From Streptacidiphilus melanogenes (GTDB lineage: Bacteria > Actinomycetota > Actinomycetes > Streptomycetales > Streptomycetaceae): DNA of 64,000 bases. Where the stretch lies: positions 21,375 to 85,374 of the forward strand of contig NZ_BBPP01000003.1 in the NCBI RefSeq assembly GCF_000787835.1. Reading direction: 5' to 3'. Shown piece by piece: positions 1-15,324 of this stretch. Numbering within the stretch: position 1 is the first letter of the stretch; every line of letters begins with the position of its first letter. Position numbers and translations under genes: made by a program. Below the pieces are notes generated by a model that saw only the letters and a list, made by a program, of their open reading frames with translations, made no database searches and was not told the DNA's origin.

Positions 1-98
1 GAGGCGGGCCCGCAGGCCCCGCCGACGGGAGGACGGCCGTCGGAACCGGAGGGTCGGACGGTCGGCAGACGTCGAACGGCGAGGAGGAAGCACGGTGA
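1..98 (+). CDS. 3' end of an upstream gene (partial)
   Basis: Reading frame 3 is open from the window edge to a TGA at 96-98, and its codons are about 80% G/C at the third position, as expected for coding DNA here. The visible tail is about 31 Gly/Ala/Arg/Glu-rich residues ending in EEEAR. The stop overlaps the GTG start of the next gene as GTGA, the same coupling seen through the rest of this cluster, so this gene is probably the first visible member of the same operon. No function can be read from the fragment. The gene itself lies outside the window. Confidence 0.5.
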   Translation, partial: GGPAGPADGRTAVGTGGSDGRQTSNGEEEAR

Positions 99-3000
99 CT
101 ACCGCCGAAGTGAGCAGTCCGGTGGCCGCCGGCACCGCGGTCGCGACCGCGCCCGACGCCGGACGCGCCGGTCCGCGCGGACCGCGGGTGCGGCAGTGGT
201 TCTTCGGGGCACGCGCGGGCGGCGGAGCGGGCGGCCGCCTGCTCGCGGGCTTCTGGGCCGTCGTCCTGGCTGCGCTGCTCGTCGAGGCCCCGGGACGGAT
301 CGTCTTCGACACCAAGGCCGACGTGGTGCTGACGCCCGGCCGCTTTCTCGGCCAGCTCGCCCACCTGTGGAGCTCGCAGGGCGGCTTCGGCGGACTGCAG
401 GACCAGGCCGTCGGCTACGCCTTCCCGATGGGCCCGTTCTACCTGGTCCTCGAATGGCTCGGGCTGCCGCCGTGGATCACCGAGCGGCTCTGGATGTCGC
501 TCATCGTCGCCGTCGCCTTCTGGGGCATGGTCCGCCTGGCCGAACGCCTCGGCGTCGGCACGCCCGGGTCCCGGCTCGCGGGTGCGCTCGCCTACGCGCT
601 GTGGCCGACGCTGACCGCCGTCCTCGGCTCCACCTCCGCGGCCGTGCTGCCGATGGCGCTGCTGCCCTGGGTGGTCGTGCCGCTCGTCGACGGCGCCCGC
701 GAGGGGGCCTCGCCGCTGCGCTGCGCCGCCCGTTCGGCCCTCGCCGTGCTGTGCATGGGCGGCGTCAACGCCGTCACCGTCCTCGCCGTGCTGCCCGCGC
801 CGCTGCTCTATCTGCTGACCCGTCAGTGGACACCGCGCGGACGGCGGTTGCTCGGATGGTGGCTGCTCGCCGTCCCGCTGGTGACCGCATGGTGGTGGCT
901 GCCGCTGCTGCTGCTCGGCCGCTACGGCTTCGACTTCCTCCCCTACATCGAGACGCCGCACACCACCGCGTCGACCATGGCCGCCACCGAGGCGCTGCGC
1001 GGCACCGGCAACTGGCTGGACTACCTCGACTTCGGCACGCCCGCGCTGAGCGCGGGCTGGGTCCTGGCCACCACCGGGTGGGCCGTCGCGGGCAGCGCCG
1101 CGCTCGCCGCGTTCGGGCTCGGCGGGCTGGCTCGCCGTGATCTCCCCGAAGGGCGCTGGCTGCGCTGGACGCTCGGCGTCGGCGCCGTCACCGTCATGGC
1201 GGTCTACGGCGGCGCCCTCGGCGGCCCGCTGCACGACCAGGCGCAGTCGTTCCTGAGCGGGCCGGGAGAGGCGTTCCACAGCATCTACAAGTTCCAGCCG
1301 CTGCTCGCGCTGCCGCTCGTACTCGGCCTCGCCCACCTGCTCGGCCGCGCCGTCACCGGGCCCCGCCGCGTGCTCGTGCCCGTCACGGCGTTCGTGCTCA
1401 CCGCCGCGCTGATCGGCTGCGCCGTCCCGTACCTGACGGCCCGTACGCTCCAGAGCGGATCCTTCAAGGCGGTGCCCGACTACTGGAAGCAGACCGCCGC
1501 GTTCCTCGCCGACAACGGCGGGGGCGGGCGCAGCCTGCTCGAACCGGCTGCCTCGCACGGCGACTACACCTGGGGCAGCACCACCGACGACGCGCTGCAG
1601 CCCTACGCCCAGTCCCCGTGGGCCGAGCGCACCCTCGTCCCCGACGGCGGCGCGGGCGTGCAGCGCTACCTCGACGCCGCCGAGCAGGCCTTCGCGACCG
1701 GCACCGACCAGCCGGGCCTGGCCGCCTACCTGGCCCGGGCGGGCATCCGCTACGTCGTGCTGCGCCACGACCTCGACCCCGGCCAGTTCGACTACGTCAA
1801 CCCCACCGCCTACCGCGAGACGCTGCTCCAGTCCGGCTTCCACCTCGTCACCTCCTTCGGGCCGGAGATCCCGCCGACGCCGGTGCGCGGCGACACGCCG
1901 CTGCAGGTCGTCGCCCTCGACTACGGCTACCCGGCCGTCGAGGTCTTCGAGGCCGACGCCGCCCCGCTCCAGCCCGAGACGCCCTTCAGCGTTCTCCCGG
2001 CCGCCGGGGCCCTGCGGCTGAGCGGCGGACCGGAGAGCCTGCTCCCGCTCAGCGGGCCGCCCGACGGCCTCGGCGGCGGGCTCGCCGACGGCCGACCCGT
2101 GCTGCTGAGCGGTCAGACCGCGGCCACCGGCGGTGTCGCGCCCGCCGGCAGCCCGCTCGTGGTGACCGACGGCCTGCGCCGCACCGACACCTCCTTCGGA
2201 CTCGTCCGCGACAACGTCTCCTACACCTACACCGCGACGGGGACGAACCCGCCCGACCGCTCCGACGGCACCGGAGGCAAGGCGCCCAGCCAGATCGCCC
2301 TGCCCTTCGACGTGACCGGGCACCAGACCACGGCCGTGATCGCCGGAGCGGCCTCGGTGACCGCGTCGAGCTACGGCTCCTGGCTGCTCCAGTCCCCGCA
2401 GTACGACCCGGTCAACGCCTTCGACGGCGACGCCGGGACCGCCTGGACCGAGGGCAGCCCGAGCAGCCCCGTCGGCCAGTGGCTGCGGATCGACTTCGCC
2501 GGCCCCGTCGACCTGCCCGCCGCGGTGTCCGTGCGGCTGCTGGCCGACAGCCCGCTGCGGCCGCTCGTCAGCAGGCTGACCGTCCGCACCGACCACGGCA
2601 CGGTGACAGACACCCTGAGCGCGAGCGGCTCGCCGCAGGACCTGGCCGTCCCGGCCGGTCCCACCCGCAGCCTCACACTCACCATCGCCGCCGCACGCGG
2701 AGCCGTCCCCGGCGGGCTCGGCGCGGGCATCAGCGAGGTGTCCGTCCCCGGCGTCCAGGTGACCCGCTACCTGGCCGCCCCGCACGACGCGGCGACGAAC
2801 GGTCAGGGCGGCGTTGCCTTCTCCTTCCACCGCACCGTCGGCGCGACCGGCCTGCTCGGCCCGCAGAGCGCCGAGACCTCGCTGGCCCGCCGGTTCACCC
2901 TGGACGCGCCCGACTCCTTCGACACCCAGCTGACCGCCATGCCGGTCCCCGGACCGGCCCTGGACGCGCTGATCCACAAGCTGACGCCGAGCGGCGGCCT

Positions 3001-4807
3001 GACCGTCACCGGCAGCCCCGCCATCGCCGACCTGCCCCAGTACCAGGCCGCGAACCTGGTCCAGGCCACGTCCTTCGACGGCTGGATCGCCGCGCCCGGG
3101 ACCACGCCGCAGCTCAGCTACTCCTGGAAGGGGCAGCGGACCCTCAGCGAACTCGACCTCCGGCCCGCCCGCGGACTGTCCGCCGCGCCGCTGACCGTGC
3201 GGCTCAGCAGCCCCGCGGGCGACCGCACCGCGTCGGTGGGCAGCGACGGCAGGGTGATCTTCGCGCCGCTGCGCACGGACCGGGTCACCGTGACCTTCCC
3301 GAAGATCCAGCAGGTCGACACCTACGAGCCGATCACCGGCAGCGAGGTGCCGCTGCCGCTGGGGCTCGCCCGGGCCTCGTTCCCGGCGCTGCGCGACCTG
3401 CCGCAGCAGGCGGCCGACCCCGGCGCCTCGTTCGCGCTGCCGTGCGGCCAGGGCCCGCAGCTCACCGTCGACGGCCGCAGCTACCCGACGTCCGCCTCCG
3501 GCACGCTGGGGGCGCTGCTCTCGCAGCAGCCGGTCGTGGTCACGCTCTGCACGACCGGAGGTCGCCTCACACTCCCGGCGGGCACCCGCAGTCTCTACGC
3601 TCCCGGGGATGCGGCGGGCCAGTCCCTGGCTCTGACGGACGTGACCCTCGTCGGCGCGTCGGAGCGCGCCGCGCTGTCGCGCACCGAGACCGCGCCGGGC
3701 GCGGCGGTGCGCACGACGGGCGCGTGGAGCTGGGGCCAGGAGGACCGCACCGTGACGGTCCATCCGGGACCGGCCGCCTACCTGGAGGTGCACGAGAACG
3801 CCGCACCCGGGTGGTCGGCGACGCTGAACGGGCGGGCGCTCCAGGCCGTCACCCTCGACGGCTGGCAGCAGGGCTTCCTGATCCCGGCCGGAGCGGGTGG
3901 CGAGGTGCAGCTGACCTACACGCCGCAGACCTGGTACGTCGTGGCGCTCTCGGTCGGCGGCTTCCTGCTGCTGCTCGTGCTCGCGACGGCGGCCTGGGCG
4001 GCGCGGCGGCAGCGGTCCGGCGCACCGGCCGGCGCTGCGGCCCTGCTCCCGGCCGCGGGCGCACGCAAGGCCGCCGGGAGGACCGCCGCGCTGATCGCCG
4101 GGCCGGTCGTCGGCCTCGCCGTCCTCGCACTGGTCGGCGGCCCGATGGCAGGCGTGGTCCTGGTGCTGGCCGCGCTGTGGTGGTGGCGTCCCGACCTGGC
4201 CCGGGTCGTGGCTCCCGCCCTGGCGGTCGCGGCCATGACCGCGGCGGGCCTGATCGCCGCCGTCGACGTCCAGCACGGCCTGACGCCGGGCCAGGGCGCG
4301 TTCAGCGCGGCCGCGCAGGCCTGCGCGCTGACCGCCCTCGCGGCGGCACTGGCGAGATGGACCGCTTTGCGCCCGCAAGGGACGCCCGGTGGCACCGCCC
4401 AGCCGGAGACGCCCGCCCCGACGGTCGCGCCGCCCCCGCAGACGGCCCCGGCGCCCCCGGCGTCGGAGCCGGCCGGTCCGCCGACCCTCGTCGAGCCCGG
4501 CCCGCTGCTCCCCTTCGTCCCGCACCAGAGCGGCGCGCCGAAGGCGAGCGCCTACCAGCCGACCCCCCGGCCCGATCCCGCCCCCGCCCCCCGCGAAACC
4601 CCGGGCAGCGCGGAGGCGCGCCCTGGCGCGGTCGGCATCCCGCGCCAGACCCGGGGTGAGACCGCCGCCGCCGAGGCTCCTGCGGGCCGTCGCGCCGACG
4701 AATCGCCGAGCACCGCCACGCCGACGACCGCTGCCGGGGAGAACGACGTGTCTACCGAGGGCATGCCACCGGCGCCGGGGCCCGAGGACGAGGCGGGGGA
4801 GCCGTGA
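95..4807 (+). CDS. AftD-like GT-C arabinofuranosyltransferase (DUF3367 family)
   Basis: A 1570-residue polytopic membrane protein of the alpha-(1->3)-arabinofuranosyltransferase (AftD) family, which uses polyprenyl-phosphate sugar donors outside the membrane. Residues about 45-470 hold many membrane spans. The first loop has FDTKADVVLTPGR, matching the acidic loop expected of GT-C enzymes. A large extracytoplasmic part follows; residues about 750-870 resemble a discoidin/CBM fold (ASSYGSW, NAFDGDAGTAWTE, W-RIDF). More spans lie at about 1275-1425, and a Pro/Ala-rich tail at about 1430-1570 is probably cytoplasmic. GTG at 95 is preceded by GAGGAGGAAG. Mycobacterial AftD builds arabinogalactan and LAM. 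Streptomycetes lack arabinogalactan, so the acceptor here is unknown. Confidence 0.85.
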   Translation: MTTAEVSSPVAAGTAVATAPDAGRAGPRGPRVRQWFFGARAGGGAGGRLLAGFWAVVLAALLVEAPGRIVFDTKADVVLTPGRFLGQLAHLWSSQGGFGGLQDQAVGYAFPMGPFYLVLEWLGLPPWITERLWMSLIVAVAFWGMVRLAERLGVGTPGSRLAGALAYALWPTLTAVLGSTSAAVLPMALLPWVVVPLVDGAREGASPLRCAARSALAVLCMGGVNAVTVLAVLPAPLLYLLTRQWTPRGRRLLGWWLLAVPLVTAWWWLPLLLLGRYGFDFLPYIETPHTTASTMAATEALRGTGNWLDYLDFGTPALSAGWVLATTGWAVAGSAALAAFGLGGLARRDLPEGRWLRWTLGVGAVTVMAVYGGALGGPLHDQAQSFLSGPGEAFHSIYKFQPLLALPLVLGLAHLLGRAVTGPRRVLVPVTAFVLTAALIGCAVPYLTARTLQSGSFKAVPDYWKQTAAFLADNGGGGRSLLEPAASHGDYTWGSTTDDALQPYAQSPWAERTLVPDGGAGVQRYLDAAEQAFATGTDQPGLAAYLARAGIRYVVLRHDLDPGQFDYVNPTAYRETLLQSGFHLVTSFGPEIPPTPVRGDTPLQVVALDYGYPAVEVFEADAAPLQPETPFSVLPAAGALRLSGGPESLLPLSGPPDGLGGGLADGRPVLLSGQTAATGGVAPAGSPLVVTDGLRRTDTSFGLVRDNVSYTYTATGTNPPDRSDGTGGKAPSQIALPFDVTGHQTTAVIAGAASVTASSYGSWLLQSPQYDPVNAFDGDAGTAWTEGSPSSPVGQWLRIDFAGPVDLPAAVSVRLLADSPLRPLVSRLTVRTDHGTVTDTLSASGSPQDLAVPAGPTRSLTLTIAAARGAVPGGLGAGISEVSVPGVQVTRYLAAPHDAATNGQGGVAFSFHRTVGATGLLGPQSAETSLARRFTLDAPDSFDTQLTAMPVPGPALDALIHKLTPSGGLTVTGSPAIADLPQYQAANLVQATSFDGWIAAPGTTPQLSYSWKGQRTLSELDLRPARGLSAAPLTVRLSSPAGDRTASVGSDGRVIFAPLRTDRVTVTFPKIQQVDTYEPITGSEVPLPLGLARASFPALRDLPQQAADPGASFALPCGQGPQLTVDGRSYPTSASGTLGALLSQQPVVVTLCTTGGRLTLPAGTRSLYAPGDAAGQSLALTDVTLVGASERAALSRTETAPGAAVRTTGAWSWGQEDRTVTVHPGPAAYLEVHENAAPGWSATLNGRALQAVTLDGWQQGFLIPAGAGGEVQLTYTPQTWYVVALSVGGFLLLLVLATAAWAARRQRSGAPAGAAALLPAAGARKAAGRTAALIAGPVVGLAVLALVGGPMAGVVLVLAALWWWRPDLARVVAPALAVAAMTAAGLIAAVDVQHGLTPGQGAFSAAAQACALTALAAALARWTALRPQGTPGGTAQPETPAPTVAPPPQTAPAPPASEPAGPPTLVEPGPLLPFVPHQSGAPKASAYQPTPRPDPAPAPRETPGSAEARPGAVGIPRQTRGETAAAEAPAGRRADESPSTATPTTAAGENDVSTEGMPPAPGPEDEAGEP

Positions 4808-5808
4808 TACTCGGCGTCGGGGCGGCCGTGTTCGCGGCCGTCTGTTACAACGTCGGTCTGCTGGTGGAGAAGCAGGCGCTCGGCGCGCTGCCGCCGTTGC
4901 GGCTGGGCGCGCCGGTCGCGCTGTTCCGGTCGCTGTTCGGGCGGCCCGCGTGGCTCGCCGGGTTCGCACTGGTCCTCGCGGGGCTGGTGCTGCAGGTCGT
5001 CTCGCAGGGGCTGCTGCCGATCACCGTGGCGCAGCCGCTGCTCGCCGTCGGCCCGGCCGTTCTGGTCGCCGCCTCCGCCGTGGCCTACCGGGAGGCGCCG
5101 GCGCGCGCCGACCTCGCCATGCTCGGGCTGCTGGCCGCGAGCACAGTGATGCTCGTGCTCAGCTACGACCCGCACCTGGACCCCGTGGGCCGCGGTCAGC
5201 ACCCGGTCGCGGTGCTGACGGTGTGTGCGCTGGCGGCGGCCGGCGCAGCCGCGGTGCTGCTGCCGCGCGGTCCCCGCTCGGGCACGGCGTACGGGGTCGC
5301 GGTCGGCTTGCTCAACGGCGCGGGCGGGCTGCTGGCCAAGGCGCTCGCGGTCTCCGCGCGGGACGGCCGCCGCTCCCTGCCCGCCCTGGCGGCACTGCCG
5401 TACCCGTGGCTGCTCGGCCTGTTCTCCGTGCTGATGCTGGGGGTGATGCAGATCGGGCTGCAGCGCTCGCGCGCGGCCACGCTGGTGCCCGCCCAGGTGA
5501 TCACCGGCAACGCCCTGGTCATGGTCGCGGGCGGGGTGATCTTCCACGAGCCGCTGCCCGCCGATCCGTTGCGGCTCGGGCTGCGCCTCGCGGCGCTGGT
5601 CGCCTCGCTGCTGGTGCTGGCGCTGCGGCCGCCCGCCGCGTCAGTGCGCGGCGCGCGCGGAGTGGGCGGCCCGGTGCAGGGCCTCGTCGACGACGGTGGC
5701 GAACCGCTCGACGGTGGTGTGCCAGCGCAGGCCGAGCGCGCGTCTGCGGGCCGCCGCGCCCATGGCCCGCCGCCGGGCGGGGTCCAGGGCGAGCCCGGCC
5801 CACGCTGA
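4804..5808 (+). CDS. DMT-like integral membrane protein
   Basis: A 334-residue protein with about nine to ten hydrophobic helices over residues 1-275, starting at a GTG that overlaps the stop of the AftD-like gene (GTGA). The pattern of short helices (SYDPHLDPVG loop, ALAVSARDG loop, QVITGNALVMVAGG) resembles the DMT/EamA transporter superfamily. Coupling to the glycosyltransferase suggests moving a lipid-linked sugar or precursor across the membrane, but this is inference. The last 56 codons (from about 5641) run antisense to the glycosyltransferase gene, lack hydrophobic helices and are Gly/Arg/Pro-rich, so they look like read-through rather than a conserved domain. Confidence 0.75.
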   Translation: MILGVGAAVFAAVCYNVGLLVEKQALGALPPLRLGAPVALFRSLFGRPAWLAGFALVLAGLVLQVVSQGLLPITVAQPLLAVGPAVLVAASAVAYREAPARADLAMLGLLAASTVMLVLSYDPHLDPVGRGQHPVAVLTVCALAAAGAAAVLLPRGPRSGTAYGVAVGLLNGAGGLLAKALAVSARDGRRSLPALAALPYPWLLGLFSVLMLGVMQIGLQRSRAATLVPAQVITGNALVMVAGGVIFHEPLPADPLRLGLRLAALVASLLVLALRPPAASVRGARGVGGPVQGLVDDGGEPLDGGVPAQAERASAGRRAHGPPPGGVQGEPGPR

Positions 5809-6801
5809 GGCGAACGCGCCCTCGGTGGGGGCCAGCAGGCCGGTCGCGCCGTGCGCGACGGAGTCGGTGAGGCCCGGGATGCGGAAGCCGACGGTGGGCG
5901 TGCGGCGCACCGCGGCCTCGGTGACCACCAGGCCCCACCCCTCGACCTGTGACGGGTGCAGCAGCATCCAGGCCTGGCACAGCAGTTCGTGCTTGGTCTG
6001 CTCGCTGATCCGCCCGGTGAAGACGACCCGGCTCCCGGCCAGGGCTTCCAGCCGTTCGCGCTCGGGGCCGTCGCCCGCGATGACGAGGGTGCCGCCGGTG
6101 ACCGGACGCACCCGCTCCCAGAGCCGCAGCAGCAGGTCGATCCGCTTGTACTCGGCGAGCCGGCCCAGCGCCAGGAACAGCGGTTCGGCCGACTTCCGTG
6201 GCAGCGCTGCGGGTTGGGCCACGTCCTCGACGCCGTTGGTGACGACGCGGATCCGCTCGGGGGCCACGCCGATCTCCGCCAGCGCCCGGGCGGTGGACTC
6301 GGAGACGGCCACGAACAGGTTGCCGCGGTGGACCCGCGGCAGCAGCACGGTCTCCGCGTAGCGGCCCAGCGCGGCGATCGGCCAGGGGTAGCGCAGCGGC
6401 CACAGCTCGCGGTGCACGTGGTTGACCAGGCAGACCGCCGGAGTGCGCGGCGACCATGCGGGGGCGAGGTAGGGCAGGCCGTTGCACACCTCGACCAGCA
6501 GGTCGACCCGGTCCAGCGAGCGGACCGCGCGCGGCGCGGTGAGGAACTGGCTGTACGGGCCACCGTTGCGGCGCACCCGGTAGGGGCGTCCGGCGCCGAC
6601 GGGACCGCCGCAGACCAGGGTGGTGGGATGGCCGCGACGGGCGAGGCCTTCGGCGAGTTTGTCGATGAGCAGTTCGGATCCGCCGGCGGCGGGGCTGGCG
6701 AGATCGCGCAGGGACAGGAAGGCGACGTGCGCGCGGGGCGCCGTCCGGGCCCGGGCGTCGTTCTCCCGGGACGGCGGCCGAAGGACGCCTGAGCGGTCCA
6801 T
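5641..6801 (-). CDS. GT4-family glycosyltransferase
   Basis: A 386-residue cytoplasmic GT-B enzyme. The N-terminal acceptor domain has FLSLRDLASPAAGGSELLIDKLA, typical of GT4 enzymes. The C-terminal nucleotide-sugar domain begins near LFLALGRLAEYKRIDLLL and includes LVIAGDGPERERLEAL, VVFTGRIS and the HPSQVEGWGLVVTEAA segment with the conserved glutamates. It is transcribed away from the DUF3068 operon, from a shared 220-base region. Its 3' end overlaps the DMT-like gene by 168 bases in convergent orientation. It could add a sugar to the lipid intermediate used by the AftD-like enzyme. Sugar and acceptor cannot be read from the sequence. Confidence 0.88.
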   Translation of the reverse strand: MDRSGVLRPPSRENDARARTAPRAHVAFLSLRDLASPAAGGSELLIDKLAEGLARRGHPTTLVCGGPVGAGRPYRVRRNGGPYSQFLTAPRAVRSLDRVDLLVEVCNGLPYLAPAWSPRTPAVCLVNHVHRELWPLRYPWPIAALGRYAETVLLPRVHRGNLFVAVSESTARALAEIGVAPERIRVVTNGVEDVAQPAALPRKSAEPLFLALGRLAEYKRIDLLLRLWERVRPVTGGTLVIAGDGPERERLEALAGSRVVFTGRISEQTKHELLCQAWMLLHPSQVEGWGLVVTEAAVRRTPTVGFRIPGLTDSVAHGATGLLAPTEGAFASAWAGLALDPARRRAMGAAARRRALGLRWHTTVERFATVVDEALHRAAHSARAAH

Positions 6802-6843
6802 CGGGGGGTGCCTTTCGTCGGGGGCGGGGAGAAGGGCGCGCCA

Positions 6844-6872
6844 ACCCTAGGGCGTTGATGACAAAGCGTCAA
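6844..6872 (-). promoter_or_regulatory. Probable promoter of the GT4 gene
   Basis: On the minus strand TTGACG (6872-6867) and TAGGGT (6849-6844) are separated by 17 bases, good -35 and -10 elements for a principal sigma factor. Transcription would start about 35-40 bases upstream of the ATG at 6801. The -35 lies in an AT-richer stretch shared with the divergent promoter. Confidence 0.55.
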
Positions 6873-6934
6873 TAACTTCTTACTTGTGGGTAGTTCTTTG
6901 GCTCACATGGGAATCATCAGCCAGTGCGCAATTA

Positions 6935-6964
6935 TTGACGTTGCGTCAGTTTGCGCTCTACGGT
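6935..6964 (+). promoter_or_regulatory. Probable promoter/operator of the DUF3068 operon
   Basis: TTGACG at 6935-6940 and TACGGT at 6959-6964 with an 18-base spacer. The -35 is part of a near-palindrome, TGACGTTGCGTCA (6936-6948), a likely binding site for a regulator. An almost identical 13-mer, TGACGCTGCGTCA, occurs at 22999-23011 upstream of an unrelated gene. Confidence 0.45.
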
Positions 6965-7024
6965 CCGAGACGTCTCGCGCTCGTGCTCCGCCGCCACCAC
7001 GTCCGGCAGCCCTCTGGGGGTCCG

Positions 7025-8071
7025 ATGAGCCACCGCGTCAGCGCCGCCGTCCTGCTCGCCACCGGCGTCCTGCTCGCCGCCGCCGGCCCCGTGCTGCACT
7101 TCGCCGTGCTGCCCGCCGTCCGCGTCGCCCCGTGGGATCCCGACGACACCACCGTCTCCACCGGCCAGGGCCGTTACCTCGACCCGACCACGGGAGCGCC
7201 GGGCACCGGCCTGGTCACCGTCACCGAGCACATCCAGGGTGACCCGGCCGTCGGCCGGAAGCACCACGCCGCCGTGTGGACCATCACCACCCGTGTCGAC
7301 ACCCCGAGCACGATCGCGCTGGCCGACGCCCGGCAGGCCCTGCAACTGAGCGTGCACCGCTGGACCTTCGACCGTGTCACCAACCAGTACGTCCCCTGCT
7401 GCGGCGCCGACACCGGCCAAGGGGCGGACGCCTTCCGCAAGTTCCCCTTCCACGCCGAAGCCCTCAGCTACCGGCTCTGGGATCCGGAGGCCGCACGGGC
7501 CTTCCCCGCGCAGCTCGACGGCACCCGCGAGATCGACGGCCACGCGTTCAACGCCTACGTGCAGACCATCCCGCCCACCGAGGTCGGCACCCTCGCCGTG
7601 CCGCCCGGCGTGCTCGGCGTGACCTCCAAGGACGCCACCGTCGAGGCCCAGGAGTGGTACCAGAACCCGCAGACCGTCACCCTGGTCGACCCGGAGACCG
7701 GCACGCCCGTCTCCGTCACCACCCACGAGATCGTCACGCTGCGGCTGCCCGGCGACACGCGCCACGCGGCCACCGCCCTCGACGTGACGCTGCGGACCAC
7801 GCAGGACACCGAGCAGCAGCTCGTCGACCAGGCCACCGGGCAGGCGACCGAACTCTCGCTGCTCGAAGGGCCGGTGCCCTGGCTGGTCACGGCCCTCGGC
7901 GTGGTGCTGGCGGCCCTCGGCGCCCTGCGGACGCACCGCAGAGCGGTCCCGGGCGTGCCAGGCCTACCGGGCGGCGGAGCCGGCGGGGCGGACGGGCCCG
8001 ACGAGCCCGAAGGCCCGGAGGCGCGGACTCACATCCCGGCGGCCGAGACCCCGGTGGCGGAGGAGTTATGA
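7025..8071 (+). CDS. DUF3068 (PorA-like family) membrane-anchored protein
   Basis: A 348-residue protein with a hydrophobic segment near residues 5-27, a long extracytoplasmic domain, and a second helix near the C-terminus (WLVTALGVVLAALGAL) followed by an Arg- and Gly-rich tail. This two-helix, large-loop layout and motifs such as YLDPTTG and GLVTFPF-like KFPFHAEALSYRLWDPEA match the DUF3068 family. ATG 7025 is chosen because the signal/anchor starts directly there; the open frame reaches back to 6884 but that part is promoter DNA. It ends in an ATGA overlap with the next gene. The role is unknown. Family members sit next to envelope glycan genes, so a periplasmic accessory role is plausible. 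Confidence 0.8.
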   Translation: MSHRVSAAVLLATGVLLAAAGPVLHFAVLPAVRVAPWDPDDTTVSTGQGRYLDPTTGAPGTGLVTVTEHIQGDPAVGRKHHAAVWTITTRVDTPSTIALADARQALQLSVHRWTFDRVTNQYVPCCGADTGQGADAFRKFPFHAEALSYRLWDPEAARAFPAQLDGTREIDGHAFNAYVQTIPPTEVGTLAVPPGVLGVTSKDATVEAQEWYQNPQTVTLVDPETGTPVSVTTHEIVTLRLPGDTRHAATALDVTLRTTQDTEQQLVDQATGQATELSLLEGPVPWLVTALGVVLAALGALRTHRRAVPGVPGLPGGGAGGADGPDEPEGPEARTHIPAAETPVAEEL

Positions 8072-8685
8072 GCACGGGAGACGGCGTGCCCGCGGCCCGG
8101 TGCGCAGCGGACGCCCGGCCCCCCGCGGCGACGGCGCTGCGCCTGCTGGCCACCGCCGCCCGGCACGGCGTCGCCGACCCCGCCTACCAGCGCCTGCACG
8201 CCGCCTACCGGGTGCGGCGTCTGGACCGGTCGTTCGGGCTGGCAGACCGTCAGGTGGTCGCGGTCGGCACCGACGTGTGGCGCGCGGACGCGTTCCGCGC
8301 CGCAGGCGCCCGCTGCCTGACCGTCGAACCGGGCACGACCGGCCGCGCGCAGCCCGCGACCCCCGCCGACGCGCCGGACCTCGCCGCGCCAGGGCCGGGG
8401 GAGCGCATCGTCGCCGACGGCTACTGGCTGCCGGTCAAGGACGGCGCGGCCGACCTCGCCTACTGCGACGCGGCGTTACCGAGCGGACCCGACGCCGTCG
8501 GCGTCGTGGACGAGCTGGCCCGGATCACCCGCGTCGGCGGACTCGTCTGCCTCTCCCTCACCGGCGCCCGCCGCCCCCTCGTGCACCTCCTCCGCCGACG
8601 CGAGGACCTGGCACTGCTCACCCGCCCCCCGATCGTGCGGCTGCCCCGCCGCCGCACCGAGCTGGTCCTGCGGAGGACGGCATGA
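8068..8685 (+). CDS. Degenerate class I SAM methyltransferase-like protein
   Basis: A 205-residue protein whose C-terminal half (VADGYWLPVKDGAADLAYCDAAL, then VVDELARITRVGGLVCLSLTG) is a clear methyltransferase-11 type post-I region. The usual glycine-rich SAM loop is weak: the corresponding stretch reads VAVGTDVWRADAFRAAGARCLTVEP. It may bind SAM poorly or act as a partner of the second methyltransferase in this operon (10136). Start and stop overlap the neighbours by four bases (ATGA) on both sides, so it is translationally coupled in the middle of the operon. A basic C-terminal tail follows the fold. Confidence 0.72.
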   Translation: MSTGDGVPAARCAADARPPAATALRLLATAARHGVADPAYQRLHAAYRVRRLDRSFGLADRQVVAVGTDVWRADAFRAAGARCLTVEPGTTGRAQPATPADAPDLAAPGPGERIVADGYWLPVKDGAADLAYCDAALPSGPDAVGVVDELARITRVGGLVCLSLTGARRPLVHLLRRREDLALLTRPPIVRLPRRRTELVLRRTA

Positions 8686-10139
8686 CCACCCAGGCGACCC
8701 GCTTCACCGCGGTCGACGAGACCGCCGACCTGATGGAGCGACGCGGCGAACCCAACCTCATCTACCTGGAACTCGGCGTCGCCGGACGCCTGGACCCCGA
8801 GCGGCTCCGCGCCGCCGTCCACACCGCGTTCGCCGACCACCCGGCCACCCGCTCGCGGCGACTGCCGACACCGCCCTGGCGCACCCGCAGCCGCTGGCAG
8901 GTCGAACCACGGCCCCCCATCGATCCGCTGACCGTCCTGACCGGCCCCGACCTCGACCTCGACCTCGACGCCCAACGGCGCGCCATCCTCGACCACCCCC
9001 TCGACCTGCGGCAGCCACCCCTGCTGCGCCTGCGCCTGCTCAGCGGCCCACCCGGCGGCGACCGCCTCCTCCTGGTCGCCCACCACGCCGGCTTCGACGG
9101 CATGGGCTTCGTCGGCGTCCTGCTGGCGATCTGCGCGGCGTACAACGCCGAGGCGGCGCACGTCGCAGCCGCGCCTGCGGGAGCGGCCCCGGTGGGAACC
9201 CCTTCGGTCCAGCCCGCGCACGACGAGGCCGCGGCTGTCGGCGCGGGGAGTCGTGAGCGCAGGGAGGACGGGGCCGCCAGGGCAGACGGGCGGAGAGGGA
9301 TGCTGCCGCCGAGGCCCGTGCGGGTAGCGCGGGAGCCCGCGTCGGCGGGGCGGCGTGGGTACGGGCTCGTGTCGCTCGGGTTCGATGTCGAGGGGAGCGA
9401 CGCGCTCGCGCGGGCCGCCCGGGCGGCGGGGGTCACGCTGAACGACCTGCTGCTCGCCGCCCTCGGCCTGGCCGTCACCCGGTGGAACACGCGGCACGCC
9501 CGGCCGGTCGAGCCGCTGCGGATCACGATGCCCGTCAACACCCGGGACCGGCAGGCGCGGCACGTCGGGGGCGGCAACCAGTCACGGCTCACCTCCATCG
9601 ACGCGGCCGGTCGCGACGCCCGCGCCGTGCTCGCCGCCGTCGCCGTCCGGACCGCCGAGGCCAAGGCCGCGCCCGCAGGGCCCCAGGGAGGGCCGGCCGC
9701 GGTCGTGCTCGGTTCCCCGTGGCTGCCGCGCGCTCTGCGGCGGGCCCTCGCCCCCTGCGTGCGGTTCGCGGCGCGCTCCTTCGCGGACACCACCATGCTC
9801 AGCAACCTCGGCCCGCTGGCCGACCTGCCGCCCGTACTCGTGGGCGCGGGGGAGATCACCGAGCTGTGGGCCGCCGCGCCCGCGCCGATGCCGCGCGGCC
9901 TCTCGGTGACCGCCCTCGGCGCCCACGGACGCCTGCACGTGATGTTCCGTCATCGCTTCGAGGCGCTCGACGCCCCGGCCGCCGCCGCCTTCACCGACGT
10001 GTTCGCCGAAGCCGTCGCCGAACTGGCCGCCGCCGCACCCGCCGCCACCGCACCGGTCGCCGCCGCACCGGTCGCCGCGGACACGGCGGGAGCCGACCTC
10101 GCCGCGACCGCGGCCCACCGCACGGAAGGAAACCCGTGA
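8682..10139 (+). CDS. Condensation/acyltransferase-fold protein (HHxxxDG)
   Basis: A 485-residue protein of the CoA-dependent acyltransferase superfamily (condensation domains, PapA and wax-ester synthase relatives). The catalytic motif HHAGFDG spans residues 134-140, with His135 and Asp139 as the key pair. A second lobe begins after an Ala/Arg-rich linker (about 155-225) and includes LNDLLLAALGLAVTRW, RITMPVNTRDRQ and the late TMLSNLGPL segment, similar to the latch/bridge region. There are no adenylation or carrier domains, so it is a free-standing enzyme. In an envelope gene cluster it may acylate a glycan or glycolipid. Acyl donor and acceptor are unknown. The C-terminus is a low-complexity Ala/Pro/Val repeat. 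Confidence 0.82.
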   Translation: MTTQATRFTAVDETADLMERRGEPNLIYLELGVAGRLDPERLRAAVHTAFADHPATRSRRLPTPPWRTRSRWQVEPRPPIDPLTVLTGPDLDLDLDAQRRAILDHPLDLRQPPLLRLRLLSGPPGGDRLLLVAHHAGFDGMGFVGVLLAICAAYNAEAAHVAAAPAGAAPVGTPSVQPAHDEAAAVGAGSRERREDGAARADGRRGMLPPRPVRVAREPASAGRRGYGLVSLGFDVEGSDALARAARAAGVTLNDLLLAALGLAVTRWNTRHARPVEPLRITMPVNTRDRQARHVGGGNQSRLTSIDAAGRDARAVLAAVAVRTAEAKAAPAGPQGGPAAVVLGSPWLPRALRRALAPCVRFAARSFADTTMLSNLGPLADLPPVLVGAGEITELWAAAPAPMPRGLSVTALGAHGRLHVMFRHRFEALDAPAAAAFTDVFAEAVAELAAAAPAATAPVAAAPVAADTAGADLAATAAHRTEGNP

Positions 10140-11170
10140 CCGACTCCGCCGCCTCCCCGCTGCGCAGCCTCTACGAGGACCCCACCGTCGTCGTGGCTTC
10201 CGGCCTCGACCGGGCCAGACGCCAACTTGCGCTGCTCGAGCCGTTGCTGGACCAGGCCGCGGCGAGCCGTCGGCGGCTCCGCATCCTTGACGTCGGCTGC
10301 GGCGACGGAGCGGCCACCGCACTGCTCGCCGATCGCGCCCACGGGCACACCGTCGTCGGCGCGGACTGGTCCCAGATGGCCCTGGAGCGGGCCCGGGCGC
10401 GCGGCATGACCCTGGTGCGGGCGACGCTCGACGGCGGCGGGCTGCCCGTGGCCGACCGGGCCCTCGACGTGGTCGTGTTCAGCGAGGTCATCGAGCACCT
10501 CGTGGACACCGACGCGGCCCTCGACGAGCTCGTCCGCGTGCTGCGGCCCGGCGGGTCGCTGCTGCTCTCCACGCCCAACCTGGCGGCCTGGTTCAACCGG
10601 GGACTGCTGCTGGCCGGCGTGCAGCCGGTCTTCAGCGAGGTCAGCCTGCGGCGGATCTACGGCCGTCCCGGCCGTGAAGTCGTGGGCCACCTGCGCCTGT
10701 TCACCCGCGCCGCGCTGCTCGGGCTGCTGCGCGGGCACGGTCTCGACATCGTCGCCGTCCGCGGGGCCGCCTACCACGACACCCCGCGCCTGCTGCGCCC
10801 GCTGGACCGCCTGCTCCAGCACGTGCCCGAGTTCGCCGCCGACCTGATCGTCCACGCCCGCACGCGACCGGCCCCCGGCGCCGACGGCCCGGGACGCCCC
10901 GACACCGTCCCATCCGCGGAGGACCGCATGCCCCTGCCCGCCGAGCTCCTCGACCTGCTCGCCTGTCCCGTCGACAAGGGCCCCCTGCTGTACGACGCGG
11001 AGACGGACAGCCTGTACAACCCGAGACTGCGCCGCGCCTACGCGATCGTCGACGACATCCCGCAGCTGTTGGCCGACGAGGCACGCCCGGTGGGCCCGGA
11101 CGACCACGAACGCATCACCGGCCCGGGCGTCGAATCCGCCTCCCGGGGGCGGGATAGGGTGGGCCCGTGA
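10136..11170 (+). CDS. SAM methyltransferase fused to a Trm112-like domain
   Basis: A 344-residue two-domain protein. Residues about 45-240 are a class I methyltransferase (ILDVGCGDGAATALLAD, then VVFSEVIEHLVD and VLRPGGSLLLSTPN). Residues 265-320 are a Trm112/UPF0434 domain of actinobacterial type (LLDLLACPVDKGPLLYDAE, LYNPRLRRAYAIVDDIPQLL), normally a small separate protein that stabilises methyltransferases. An ATG at 10928 (residue 265) has GGAGG five bases upstream, so a free Trm112-like protein may also be made. GTG 10136 overlaps the previous stop as GTGA. Natural pairing of a methyltransferase with Trm112 supports a real functional fusion. The substrate is probably an envelope precursor, by context only. 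Confidence 0.85.
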   Translation: MTDSAASPLRSLYEDPTVVVASGLDRARRQLALLEPLLDQAAASRRRLRILDVGCGDGAATALLADRAHGHTVVGADWSQMALERARARGMTLVRATLDGGGLPVADRALDVVVFSEVIEHLVDTDAALDELVRVLRPGGSLLLSTPNLAAWFNRGLLLAGVQPVFSEVSLRRIYGRPGREVVGHLRLFTRAALLGLLRGHGLDIVAVRGAAYHDTPRLLRPLDRLLQHVPEFAADLIVHARTRPAPGADGPGRPDTVPSAEDRMPLPAELLDLLACPVDKGPLLYDAETDSLYNPRLRRAYAIVDDIPQLLADEARPVGPDDHERITGPGVESASRGRDRVGP

Positions 11171-11820
11171 CTCCTTCATCCGCTTCATCCGCGGCGGATT
11201 CCGCGCCGCAGGCCGCCCCACGGGCGCCTTCGCTGCGCAGCGAGTACCGGGAGCTGACCCGCAAGCGGCTGCTGGAGGCCGTGCGCGAGGTGCTGGAGGA
11301 GACGGACTACGCGGCGGCGACCGTCGACGAGATCGTGCGGCGCGCCGGGGCCAGCCGGGCCACGTTCTACGTGCACTTCCGCTCCAAGGCCGAGGCCGCC
11401 GCGGCGCTGCTGGAACGGGTGACGCCCTCGGACCGGGGCCTGTACGCCACCCTCCCGAAGGCGCTGCGCACCCGCGCGGGGCTGCGTCGCTGGCTGGAGC
11501 TGTCGCTCGGCTGGTACGAGGAGCACGCCCGGCTGCTGGCCGCGCTCAACGAGGCGATGGCGGTGGAGGGCACGGTCGCGGAGCGCCGCTCGGCGGCCGT
11601 CGAGCGCATGGTGGAGGCGCTGCCGGAGTACCTGGACCACTCGGAGGACCCGGCCCGGGCGCGGGTGCGCCTGCAACTGCTGCTGCGCCAGTTCCACCAG
11701 GTGGCGATGGACACCGTGGTGCAGCAGGCCTGGCAGCCGGACCGGGACGTGCTGCTGGACGAGATGACGGCCGCCTGGTGGCTCGCCCTGGGCGGGGAGG
11801 CGACCCCGCCCAGGCGCTGA
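11167..11820 (+). CDS. TetR-family transcriptional regulator
   Basis: A 217-residue TetR protein. The N-terminal helix-turn-helix is clear: RLLEAVREVLEETDYAAATVDEIVRRAGASRATFYVHFRSKAEAAAALL (residues about 35-85, with FYVHF as the hallmark). The ligand-binding C-terminal domain is alpha-helical and of the short AcrR type. GTG at 11167 overlaps the preceding stop as GTGA, so it is the last gene of the operon and probably controls it. The palindrome at 6936-6948 in the operon promoter is a candidate operator, but no link is proven. Confidence 0.85.
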   Translation: MTPSSASSAADSAPQAAPRAPSLRSEYRELTRKRLLEAVREVLEETDYAAATVDEIVRRAGASRATFYVHFRSKAEAAAALLERVTPSDRGLYATLPKALRTRAGLRRWLELSLGWYEEHARLLAALNEAMAVEGTVAERRSAAVERMVEALPEYLDHSEDPARARVRLQLLLRQFHQVAMDTVVQQAWQPDRDVLLDEMTAAWWLALGGEATPPRR

Positions 11821-14283: not shown

Positions 14284-15324
14284 ATGGATACACAGCGTGC
14301 GGTACGGGCTCGTGGGATCACCAAATGCTTCGGAGACGTCGTCGCCCTCGACGGCGTCGACCTGGATCTGACGTCGGGGCAGATCCACGGACTGGTAGGG
14401 CCGAACGGCGCCGGCAAGACGACGCTGCTGGGTCTGCTGCTCGGCCTGGCCGTCGCCGACGACGGCAGCCTGGAGGTGTTCGGCAGGCCGGTCGGCCGCG
14501 CGCTCGCCGCGCCGGCGGGCGTCGCCGGGTTCGTGGACGGGCCGGGCCTGTACCCGTCATTGACGGCTCGTCAGAATCTGCAGGCGCTCGCCTCGCTGCG
14601 AGGCCAGGACCGGCGGACCGCGCGCGTCGACGAGGTGCTGGAGGAGGTCGGGCTCCGCGAGGTCGCCGACGACCGGGCCCGCGGCTTCTCCCTGGGCATG
14701 CGTCAGCGACTCGGACTGGCGGCGGCGTTGCTGGCCCGCCCCCGGCTGCTGGTGCTCGACGAGCCCTCCAACGGGCTCGACCCCGCGGGAAAGAAGCATG
14801 TGCACGGCGTCCTGACGCGGCTCGCGGGGGAGGGCGCCACCGTCGTGCTCTCCAGCCACCGCATGGACGACCTGGAGGCGCTCTGCTCCGAGGTCACCAT
14901 CCTGGCGACCGGACGGGTCCGCTTCTCCGGCCCGATCGGCAAGCTGGCCGCCGAGACCCGCGAACTCGACTACCGCCTGATCACCTCCGACCCCGAGGCC
15001 GCGCGCCGCCTCGCCGCCGACGCCGCCGGGGTCCGCGTCGTGGACGGCGAGGCGGCCTGGCGCGGCGCCGAGGCGCTGGTCGTGCGCGCGCAGGCGCCCG
15101 CCCTGGAGCGGCTCGTGGCGCGGCTGGTCGGGGAGAACCTCGCGATCCGCGAAGTCGCCCCCGTCGTCTCGCCGCTGGAGACCGCGTTCCTCACCCTCAC
15201 CGAGGAGCCGGAAGAGCACATGGACCACGCGGCGCAGGCCGACCACACGGAACCCGCGTCACACACGGAACCCGCGTCGCACGCGGAGCAGGCCGAGCAG
15301 AAGGCGCAGGAGGCCGACCGATGA
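14284..15324 (+). CDS. ABC exporter ATP-binding protein
   Basis: A 346-residue ATPase. Walker A is GPNGAGKTT (about residues 40-48), the signature loop is the variant FSLGMRQRL, Walker B is LLVLDEPSNGLDP, and the switch His lies in LSSHRMD. The extended C-terminal region (about 215-300, ELDYRLITSDPEAARRLAADA, then PLETAFLTLT) is the domain found in CcmA/NatA/DrrA-type exporters. A His/Glu/Ala-rich repeat tail (repeated TEPASH) follows. The stop overlaps the permease start as ATGA. It probably powers export of a lipid, peptide or drug with the next gene. Substrate unknown. Confidence 0.88.
   Translation: MDTQRAVRARGITKCFGDVVALDGVDLDLTSGQIHGLVGPNGAGKTTLLGLLLGLAVADDGSLEVFGRPVGRALAAPAGVAGFVDGPGLYPSLTARQNLQALASLRGQDRRTARVDEVLEEVGLREVADDRARGFSLGMRQRLGLAAALLARPRLLVLDEPSNGLDPAGKKHVHGVLTRLAGEGATVVLSSHRMDDLEALCSEVTILATGRVRFSGPIGKLAAETRELDYRLITSDPEAARRLAADAAGVRVVDGEAAWRGAEALVVRAQAPALERLVARLVGENLAIREVAPVVSPLETAFLTLTEEPEEHMDHAAQADHTEPASHTEPASHAEQAEQKAQEADR

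Follow-up and report, generated by a model that had tools for sequence, protein, structure and literature searches.

The DNA analyzed here, a window of 64 kb from Streptacidiphilus melanogenes (positions 21375-85374 of contig C105 in the source genome, G000), contains a gene cluster that is a variant of the envelope locus described in Corynebacteriales, with another acyltransferase, a promoter dyad of its own, a degenerate relative of the methyltransferase-fold protein MtrP and an undescribed product. The cluster is a regulon, not one operon, and consists of an AftD-DMT pair, a glycosyltransferase gene (GT4) on the opposite strand and a PgfA-MT1-AT-MT2-TetR group. Whether it is dedicated to building and modifying a surface glycolipid, and descends from a common ancestor with the AftD/LmcA/MtrP envelope locus, is a question on which we regard the balance as even. 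An earlier sequence-only reading of this DNA had named eight genes of the cluster; all eight are intact frames within 95-11820, and their families were assigned by profile matches, which bears out that list. The features are as follows.

95..4807, + strand: AftD-like GT-C glycosyltransferase, 1570 aa (PF11847)
4804..5808, + strand: DMT/NIPA-like membrane protein, 334 aa (NIPA/EamA matches at the family level)
5641..6801, - strand: GT4 glycosyltransferase, 386 aa (PF00534)
6859..6872, - strand: operator-like dyad TTGACGCTTTGTCA, facing GT4
6935..6948, + strand: operator-like dyad TTGACGTTGCGTCA, facing PgfA
7025..8071, + strand: PgfA/LmcA (DUF3068), 348 aa (NF053601, PF11271)
8068..8685, + strand: MT1, MtrP-like methyltransferase fold without S-adenosylmethionine (SAM) motif I, 205 aa
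8682..10139, + strand: AT, condensation-superfamily acyltransferase with HHxxxDG, 485 aa (PF00668, fold)
10136..11170, + strand: MT2, class I methyltransferase fused to a Trm112-like tail, 344 aa (PF13489, PF03966)
11167..11820, + strand: TetR-type regulator, 217 aa (PF00440, 47.9 bits)

The sequence-only reading had tied all of these genes together by 4-base overlaps. Such overlaps are exact at 4804 (GTGA), 8068 (ATGA), 8682 (ATGA), 10136 (GTGA) and 11167 (GTGA), and join seven of the eight genes into two groups, AftD-DMT and PgfA-MT1-AT-MT2-TetR, but the GT4 gene falls outside both: it lies on the opposite strand, shares 168 bases with the DMT gene in a tail-to-tail overlap and is oriented divergently to PgfA. 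The start of AftD is near 95, and upstream of the window (L003 8440-9351) lies a gene for an alpha/beta hydrolase (ABH), separated from AftD by a stretch of N (L003 9563-10000). Its product scored 534 bits against the family profile and shares 58-85% identity with the equivalently placed gene in the six other loci of the same arrangement (type A, see below), and ABH belongs to the gene set of the cluster. Genes outside the window were called with a codon-usage caller built for this analysis.

A chance neighbourhood was rejected on the basis of the conserved gene set and the shared dyad. In a sample of 150 genomes, the source genome included, PF11847 was found in 31 and DUF3068 in 70, and 27 of the 31 AftD genomes carry a DUF3068 gene no more than 15 kb away on the AftD contig (not G122, G140, G142 and G145). 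Loci were read for 30 of these genomes, with G145 left out, and the resulting 31 AftD-bearing rows (two from G142) contain GT4 in 29, PgfA in 27, MT1 in 24, AT in 18, MT2 in 15 and DMT in 14, in addition to MmpA-like proteins in 9 and TmaT-like proteins in 7; these counts were obtained with our own score thresholds and are lower bounds, as some loci end at contig ends or at the 20-kb limit. Two arrangements were observed. Type A, found in five Streptacidiphilus loci and in G019 and G037, has the order ABH-AftD-DMT-(GT4 opposite)-PgfA-MT1-AT-MT2, followed by TetR in three of the seven loci, one TetR-less locus ending at a contig end. Type B, found in Streptomyces and genus g4, has the order PucR(opposite)-PgfA-GT4-MT1-AftD-AT-MT2-DMT-Trm112-FkbM. 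Among the best 80 named loci by similarity, 29 were shorter than 20 kb and were left out; all seven families occur together in 45 of the remaining 51, including those of S. griseus (L137) and S. scabiei (L129). The genes are thus conserved together in relatives, a point on which the sequence-only reading had made its proposal depend. In trees built from 27 GT4 rows and 38 PgfA rows, the type A and type B copies group together and apart from other loci (support 100/100 and 99/99, respectively), and each type forms its own group in both trees, type B weakly so in the GT4 tree (68/88).

The dyad, TTGAC-N5-GTCA, is a feature of the cluster promoters in type A and type B alike. Two copies, one for each gene direction, are positioned in the GT4-PgfA intergenic region of all five Streptacidiphilus loci, and the window contains three matches against 0.17 expected, a number reached in none of 100 shuffles; the third (14560-14573) falls within an ABC-type gene call (14284-15324). 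In the seven type A loci, 27 of the 28 starts of ABH, AftD, GT4 and PgfA have a dyad upstream (up to 600 bases upstream, with 150 bases into the gene allowed), the remaining start being that of AftD in L047, and 27 of the 28 dyads present in the 132,770 bases of these loci are so placed. Similarly, a dyad lies between PucR and PgfA in 68 of the 70 type B loci, among which at least one genome entered the count twice (L037/L098), the misses being L130 and L133. Unmerged counts for type B are 138 in 33,509 bases of PucR-PgfA sequence, with full palindromes counting twice, against 8 in 1,332,028 bases elsewhere. Six of six polA-linked loci had no dyad near PgfA, and 15 of 15 loci outside the family contained no dyad anywhere; one of five solo loci (L062) has a dyad near PgfA. 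The element overlaps a possible -35 hexamer, as judged by eye, and its sequence and placement suggest that it may act as an operator. As GT4 shares the dyad even though it is on the other strand, it seems to be part of the same regulon. Locally encoded regulators differ between the arrangements (TetR in some type A loci, PucR in type B), and a common regulator is therefore likely encoded outside the cluster. A looser pattern with two mismatches was uninformative (9 matches, a number that 10 of 100 shuffles reached). Genome-wide, the strict pattern TTGAC-N5-GTCAA occurs at 4-12 sites in each of 10 genomes against 0-4 for the reversed pattern; the cluster holds four of the six sites in G019, three of the 12 in G037 and none of the eight in the source genome, where the cluster sites are without the last A. 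No wider regulon emerged from this search. A near-fixed sequence, TTGACTGGGGGTCAA, present in 1-3 copies in each of nine genomes, is probably an unrelated conserved element.

The sequence-only reading had stated that no described pathway uses this combination of genes, which is not supported. In the sections of the literature cited here, the locus of Corynebacterium glutamicum is given as cg3161 (AftD), cg3163 (TmaT), cg3164 and cg3165 (membrane proteins), cg3166 (putative glycosyltransferase) and cg3168 (MtrP) (PMC7775120), and LmcA (NCgl2760) and MmpA (NCgl2761) are assigned to the same locus (PMC8972800, PMC8698533), so that, judging from gene order, they are probably cg3164 and cg3165. According to the same sections, products of the locus act in lipoglycan elongation, arabinan formation and glycolipid acylation (PMC8972800, PMC8698533, PMC7775120), and TmaT, MtrP and MmpA are jointly required for the acetylation of trehalose corynomycolate and its passage across the membrane (PMC8698533). 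These accounts are split on LmcA/PgfA, which is placed in lipoglycan elongation (PMC8972800, PMC8698533) or, for PgfA of Mycobacterium smegmatis, in trehalose-mycolate transport (PMC9678360). A like layout was observed in G108 (L066, L026), a genome whose gene content suggests Mycobacterium, in the order MT1, GT4, MmpA, PgfA, TmaT and AftD with other genes between; its MT1 and GT4 scored 257 and 418 bits, respectively, against profiles built without them. Over the aligned parts, the window proteins are identical to those of G108 at 36% (AftD), 36% (GT4), 28% (MT1) and 23% (PgfA). A recent transfer of a mycobacterial locus was rejected on these identities and on the separate grouping of the type A and type B copies in the trees.

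Like the Corynebacteriales aftD-tmaT-lmcA-mmpA-GT-mtrP locus (cg3161-cg3168; Rv0224c-Rv0228 plus aftD), the streptomycete cluster encodes AftD, DUF3068/PgfA, GT4 and an MtrP-like protein together. Unlike that locus, it has AT, MT2-Trm112, a DMT-like protein and its own dyad, and profiles of TmaT and MmpA gave no match at threshold in the type A and type B loci; the cluster is thus not a member of the TmaT-MtrP-MmpA system. An hhalign comparison relates the MmpA-like family to the N-terminal half of AftD (probability 99.3%, E 3.6e-20). Streptomycetes are not known to contain mycolates or arabinogalactan. Several loci outside the family (L028, L030, L031, L044) lie near rpsA, coaE or polA, and the source genome has a second DUF3068/PgfA gene (L005, contig C89, 11747-12805) in the order polA-PgfA-methyltransferase-rpsA-coaE; from this, the streptomycete cluster appears to be either a relocated set or a second one. 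The polA-linked PgfA setting recurs in L056, L057, L058, L063 and L065, whether or not an AftD cluster is present elsewhere.

At the level of single proteins, AftD scored 682 bits against PF11847 (curated cut-off 26) and its residues 48-1346 align with the solved AftD 6wbx (E 1.2e-138), so that the GT-C domain and the C-terminal region are alignable with mycobacterial AftD (6wbx, 6w98) over about 1300 residues. GT-C enzymes generally have a catalytic acidic residue in their first outer loop; position 72 is acidic in all 18 aligned relatives (D in 15, E in 3). GT4 matches PF00534 (2e-26). PgfA exceeds the cut-off of the NCBIfam equivalog NF053601 (197.7 bits against 160) and that of PF11271, the Pfam 'PorA' family (184 bits), and gave a weak match to the solved LmcA 7n3v (E 3.4e-4); it differs from PgfA/LmcA in that the source genome has the second copy. 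For the DMT label, seven of 11 family members matched Mg_trans_NIPA (best 4.5e-08) and four EamA, all weakly, and the window protein itself has no Pfam family match; these resemblances are consistent with a possible flippase of a lipid or lipid-sugar. MT2 matched PF13489 (79 bits) and PF03966 (43.6 bits), and the Trm112-like tail of type A MT2 matches the separate small gene of type B, which links the two.

The two methyltransferases of the sequence-only reading fared differently. MT2 belongs to the class I methyltransferases by its family match; MT1 has the fold, with a model (predicted local distance difference test score, pLDDT, 76.0) whose top match is a UbiG structure (E 5.1e-8), but it has no recognizable SAM motif I, so that its activity is doubtful. 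Although MT1 is like MtrP/Rv0224c in fold and family, motif I has been lost in all five Streptacidiphilus copies, which read like AVGT-DVW, whereas all nine type B copies and the Mycobacterium-like copy read DVGGG or DIGGG. The GGHE...WHYxG segment is also missing from all five, and the G019 and G037 copies keep motif I and are without the segment, a pattern that, as read from these alignments, resembles stepwise loss. A dying pseudogene was rejected on the intact frames, the 71-79% identity in the five copies and an omega of 0.38-0.6, which indicates purifying selection, with weaker constraint than in four type B copies (0.14-0.22).

The claim of an HHxxxDG protein with an acyltransferase fold was upheld: AT matched PF00668 (37.4 bits), and its model (pLDDT 78.4) has a condensation-type fold (best match E 1.5e-18), with SgcC5 of S. 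globisporus among the first structural matches. It shares the fold and the HHxxxDG motif with condensation, WS/DGAT and PapA acyltransferases, and differs from them in scoring below the cut-offs of TIGR02946 (WS/DGAT; 69 against 309.95) and PapA_C (27.1 against 30). A search for the HH...DG motif had suggested that the site is lost in several copies, which was rejected by an alignment of 15 copies: the second His (His135) and Asp139 are invariant in all of them, and the first His or the Gly is altered in some.

The surface glycolipid that we propose as the product would be made in steps of which each reaction, the sugar, the lipid and the order are putative. GT4 would place a sugar onto a lipid at the inner face of the membrane, the DMT-like protein may flip the lipid or lipid-sugar, and AftD would add sugar outside from a polyprenyl-phosphate donor, not necessarily of arabinose. 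AT might then acylate the product, perhaps with MT1 as a non-catalytic partner, comparable to TmaT with MtrP and MmpA on trehalose corynomycolate; MT2 would methylate a precursor, and PgfA would bind the finished lipid in the periplasm and pass it on. By analogy, AT, MT1, AftD and PgfA could do for another lipid what TmaT-MtrP-MmpA does. In favour of the proposal are the joint conservation of the seven families in two orders, the grouping of types A and B in the trees, the placement of the dyad, the core genes shared with the G108 and C. glutamicum loci, and the conserved residues of AT and AftD. Several points weigh against it. No product of the cluster is known, and in the cited part of one study, the macroamphiphile of S. 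hygroscopicus NRRL 2387 is a lipoteichoic acid, with no lipomannan-type lipoglycan (PMC3196553), and the cluster-bearing S. hygroscopicus that we read (L078) is a strain other than NRRL 2387. In addition, the flippase role rests on weak family matches, the identity of PgfA to the mycobacterial copy is low, TmaT and MmpA have no match at threshold in the cluster, and the genome-wide search with the strict dyad in 10 genomes identified no regulator.

Among the alternatives is an arabinan-bearing glycolipid, for which AftD would use decaprenyl-phosphoryl-arabinose as in mycobacteria, and we judge it unlikely. AftD is alignable over nearly its whole length with the solved enzyme, and the source genome contains relatives of DprE1 (73% identity to the Streptomyces protein) and UbiA (36-38%). 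DUF4185, a family that includes endo-D-arabinofuranases according to the portion of the source cited (PMC10115798), is also represented: next to the cluster, a DUF4185-like gene is present in G037, where it scores above the cut-off (46 bits), and in G019, where it scores below (36.6 bits), and a full-length gene is on the same contig of the source genome, 196 kb away. Unlike mycobacterial AftD, however, the streptomycete protein occurs in genomes in which Emb was not found: Emb (PF04602) was found in the two mycolata genomes tested and in none of eight non-mycolata genomes, the source genome among them. Three cluster-bearing genomes (G019, G037 and G079) gave no phosphoribosyltransferase match at E 0.001 and partial DprE1 matches of 28-31% identity with Streptomyces queries, on draft genomes, which makes arabinan an unlikely product there. 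UbiA relatives with 40% identity or more, a line set after the list was seen, occur in 8 of 15 AftD-bearing and 30 of 75 other genomes of the family (p 0.40, own genome left out), and AftD and these relatives thus occur independently. DUF4185 is present in only 34 of the 150 genomes, several of them without AftD; partial matches are in four of the six AftD-bearing Streptomyces of the sample and also in genomes without AftD. On this evidence a mycobacterial-type arabinan is unlikely, in agreement with the sequence-only reading, which had argued that the product must be something else.

Two further explanations were given less weight. It is improbable, in our estimation, that the regulon combines two separate functions, a lipoglycan branch (AftD, PgfA, GT4) and an acyl-lipid branch (AT, MT1, MT2). 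In C. glutamicum, the cited part of one report states that loss of NCgl2760 affects lipomannan and lipoarabinomannan and not trehalose corynomycolate, and that loss of tmaT, mtrP or mmpA has the reverse effect (PMC8698533), as such a division would predict; however, the sections consulted give PgfA of M. smegmatis a role in trehalose-mycolate transport (PMC9678360), and the supposed branches are interleaved in the type B order GT4-MT1-AftD-AT-MT2. A specialised-metabolite cluster with a membrane-anchored sugar step, with the HHxxxDG protein as a stand-alone condensation enzyme, would fit the likeness of the AT model to condensation domains, SgcC5 included, and the patchy distribution of the cluster, found in five of 14 genomes of the genus. 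Since the seven core families, ABH, PucR and FkbM include no synthase or carrier protein, and PgfA, AftD, GT4 and MT1 are related to the envelope locus, we consider this quite implausible.

Returning to a glycolipid regulon of common ancestry with the envelope locus, a bolder version, which we advance only tentatively and with less than even confidence, is that AftD, PgfA, GT4 and the MtrP-like protein are an ancient actinobacterial glycolipid machine that predates mycolic acids and arabinogalactan. In streptomycetes it would persist as a self-contained regulon and make an acylated, as yet undescribed surface glycolipid from a non-arabinose donor, mycobacteria would have adapted the machine to mycolates and arabinan, and the Streptacidiphilus MtrP relative would be a pure partner protein. 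If this last point is true, the role of this protein in the acylation step was never wholly dependent on methylation. LmcA/PgfA, MmpA and MtrP are described, in the sections cited, as envelope genes of Corynebacterineae (PMC8972800, PMC9678360, PMC8698533). A relative under joint control in harmless streptomycetes, which are not known to have mycolates or arabinogalactan, would separate a shared core function from both. PgfA is essential in mycobacteria, as stated in the consulted part of the source (PMC9678360), which hampers its study; since nine of the 14 genomes of the genus do not have the cluster, it may be dispensable, and a dispensable streptomycete set would ease testing. The cluster also points to an undescribed streptomycete surface glycolipid, of which the literature searched gave no account, and it puts in question the arabinosyltransferase label for PF11847 proteins, which are present in 44 of 296 genomes of a phylum sample, with lower scores outside the class.

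Some minor observations concern the arabinose-related genes and the wider AftD surroundings. In the Streptomyces genome G043 (L157 2181-6706), a UbiA-type phosphoribosyltransferase, PAP2, GtrA, DprE1 and DprE2, as we read the locus, are encoded together, far from the cluster, a set that looks like a whole arabinose-donor pathway without Emb. G088 has DprE1 (85%) and no phosphoribosyltransferase match; at its corresponding locus (L158) DprE1 and DprE2 are kept, and UbiA and PAP2 are missing. The DUF4185-like genes beside the cluster (L049 18703-19890 and L045 4040-5356) are from Streptantibioticus and from genus g7, and in G037 a dyad lies between the DUF4185-like gene and an FkbM gene (L154 3021). 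Outside the family, a second, more distant PF11847 gene was observed in G113, G122, G131 and G142 (L041, L053/L054). Near AftD/PgfA outside Streptomycetaceae (L030, L031, L044, L051), we also found an undescribed family, F21, of 589-625 aa and without a Pfam match, whose profile aligned with the N-terminal half of AftD at an hhalign probability of 82%.

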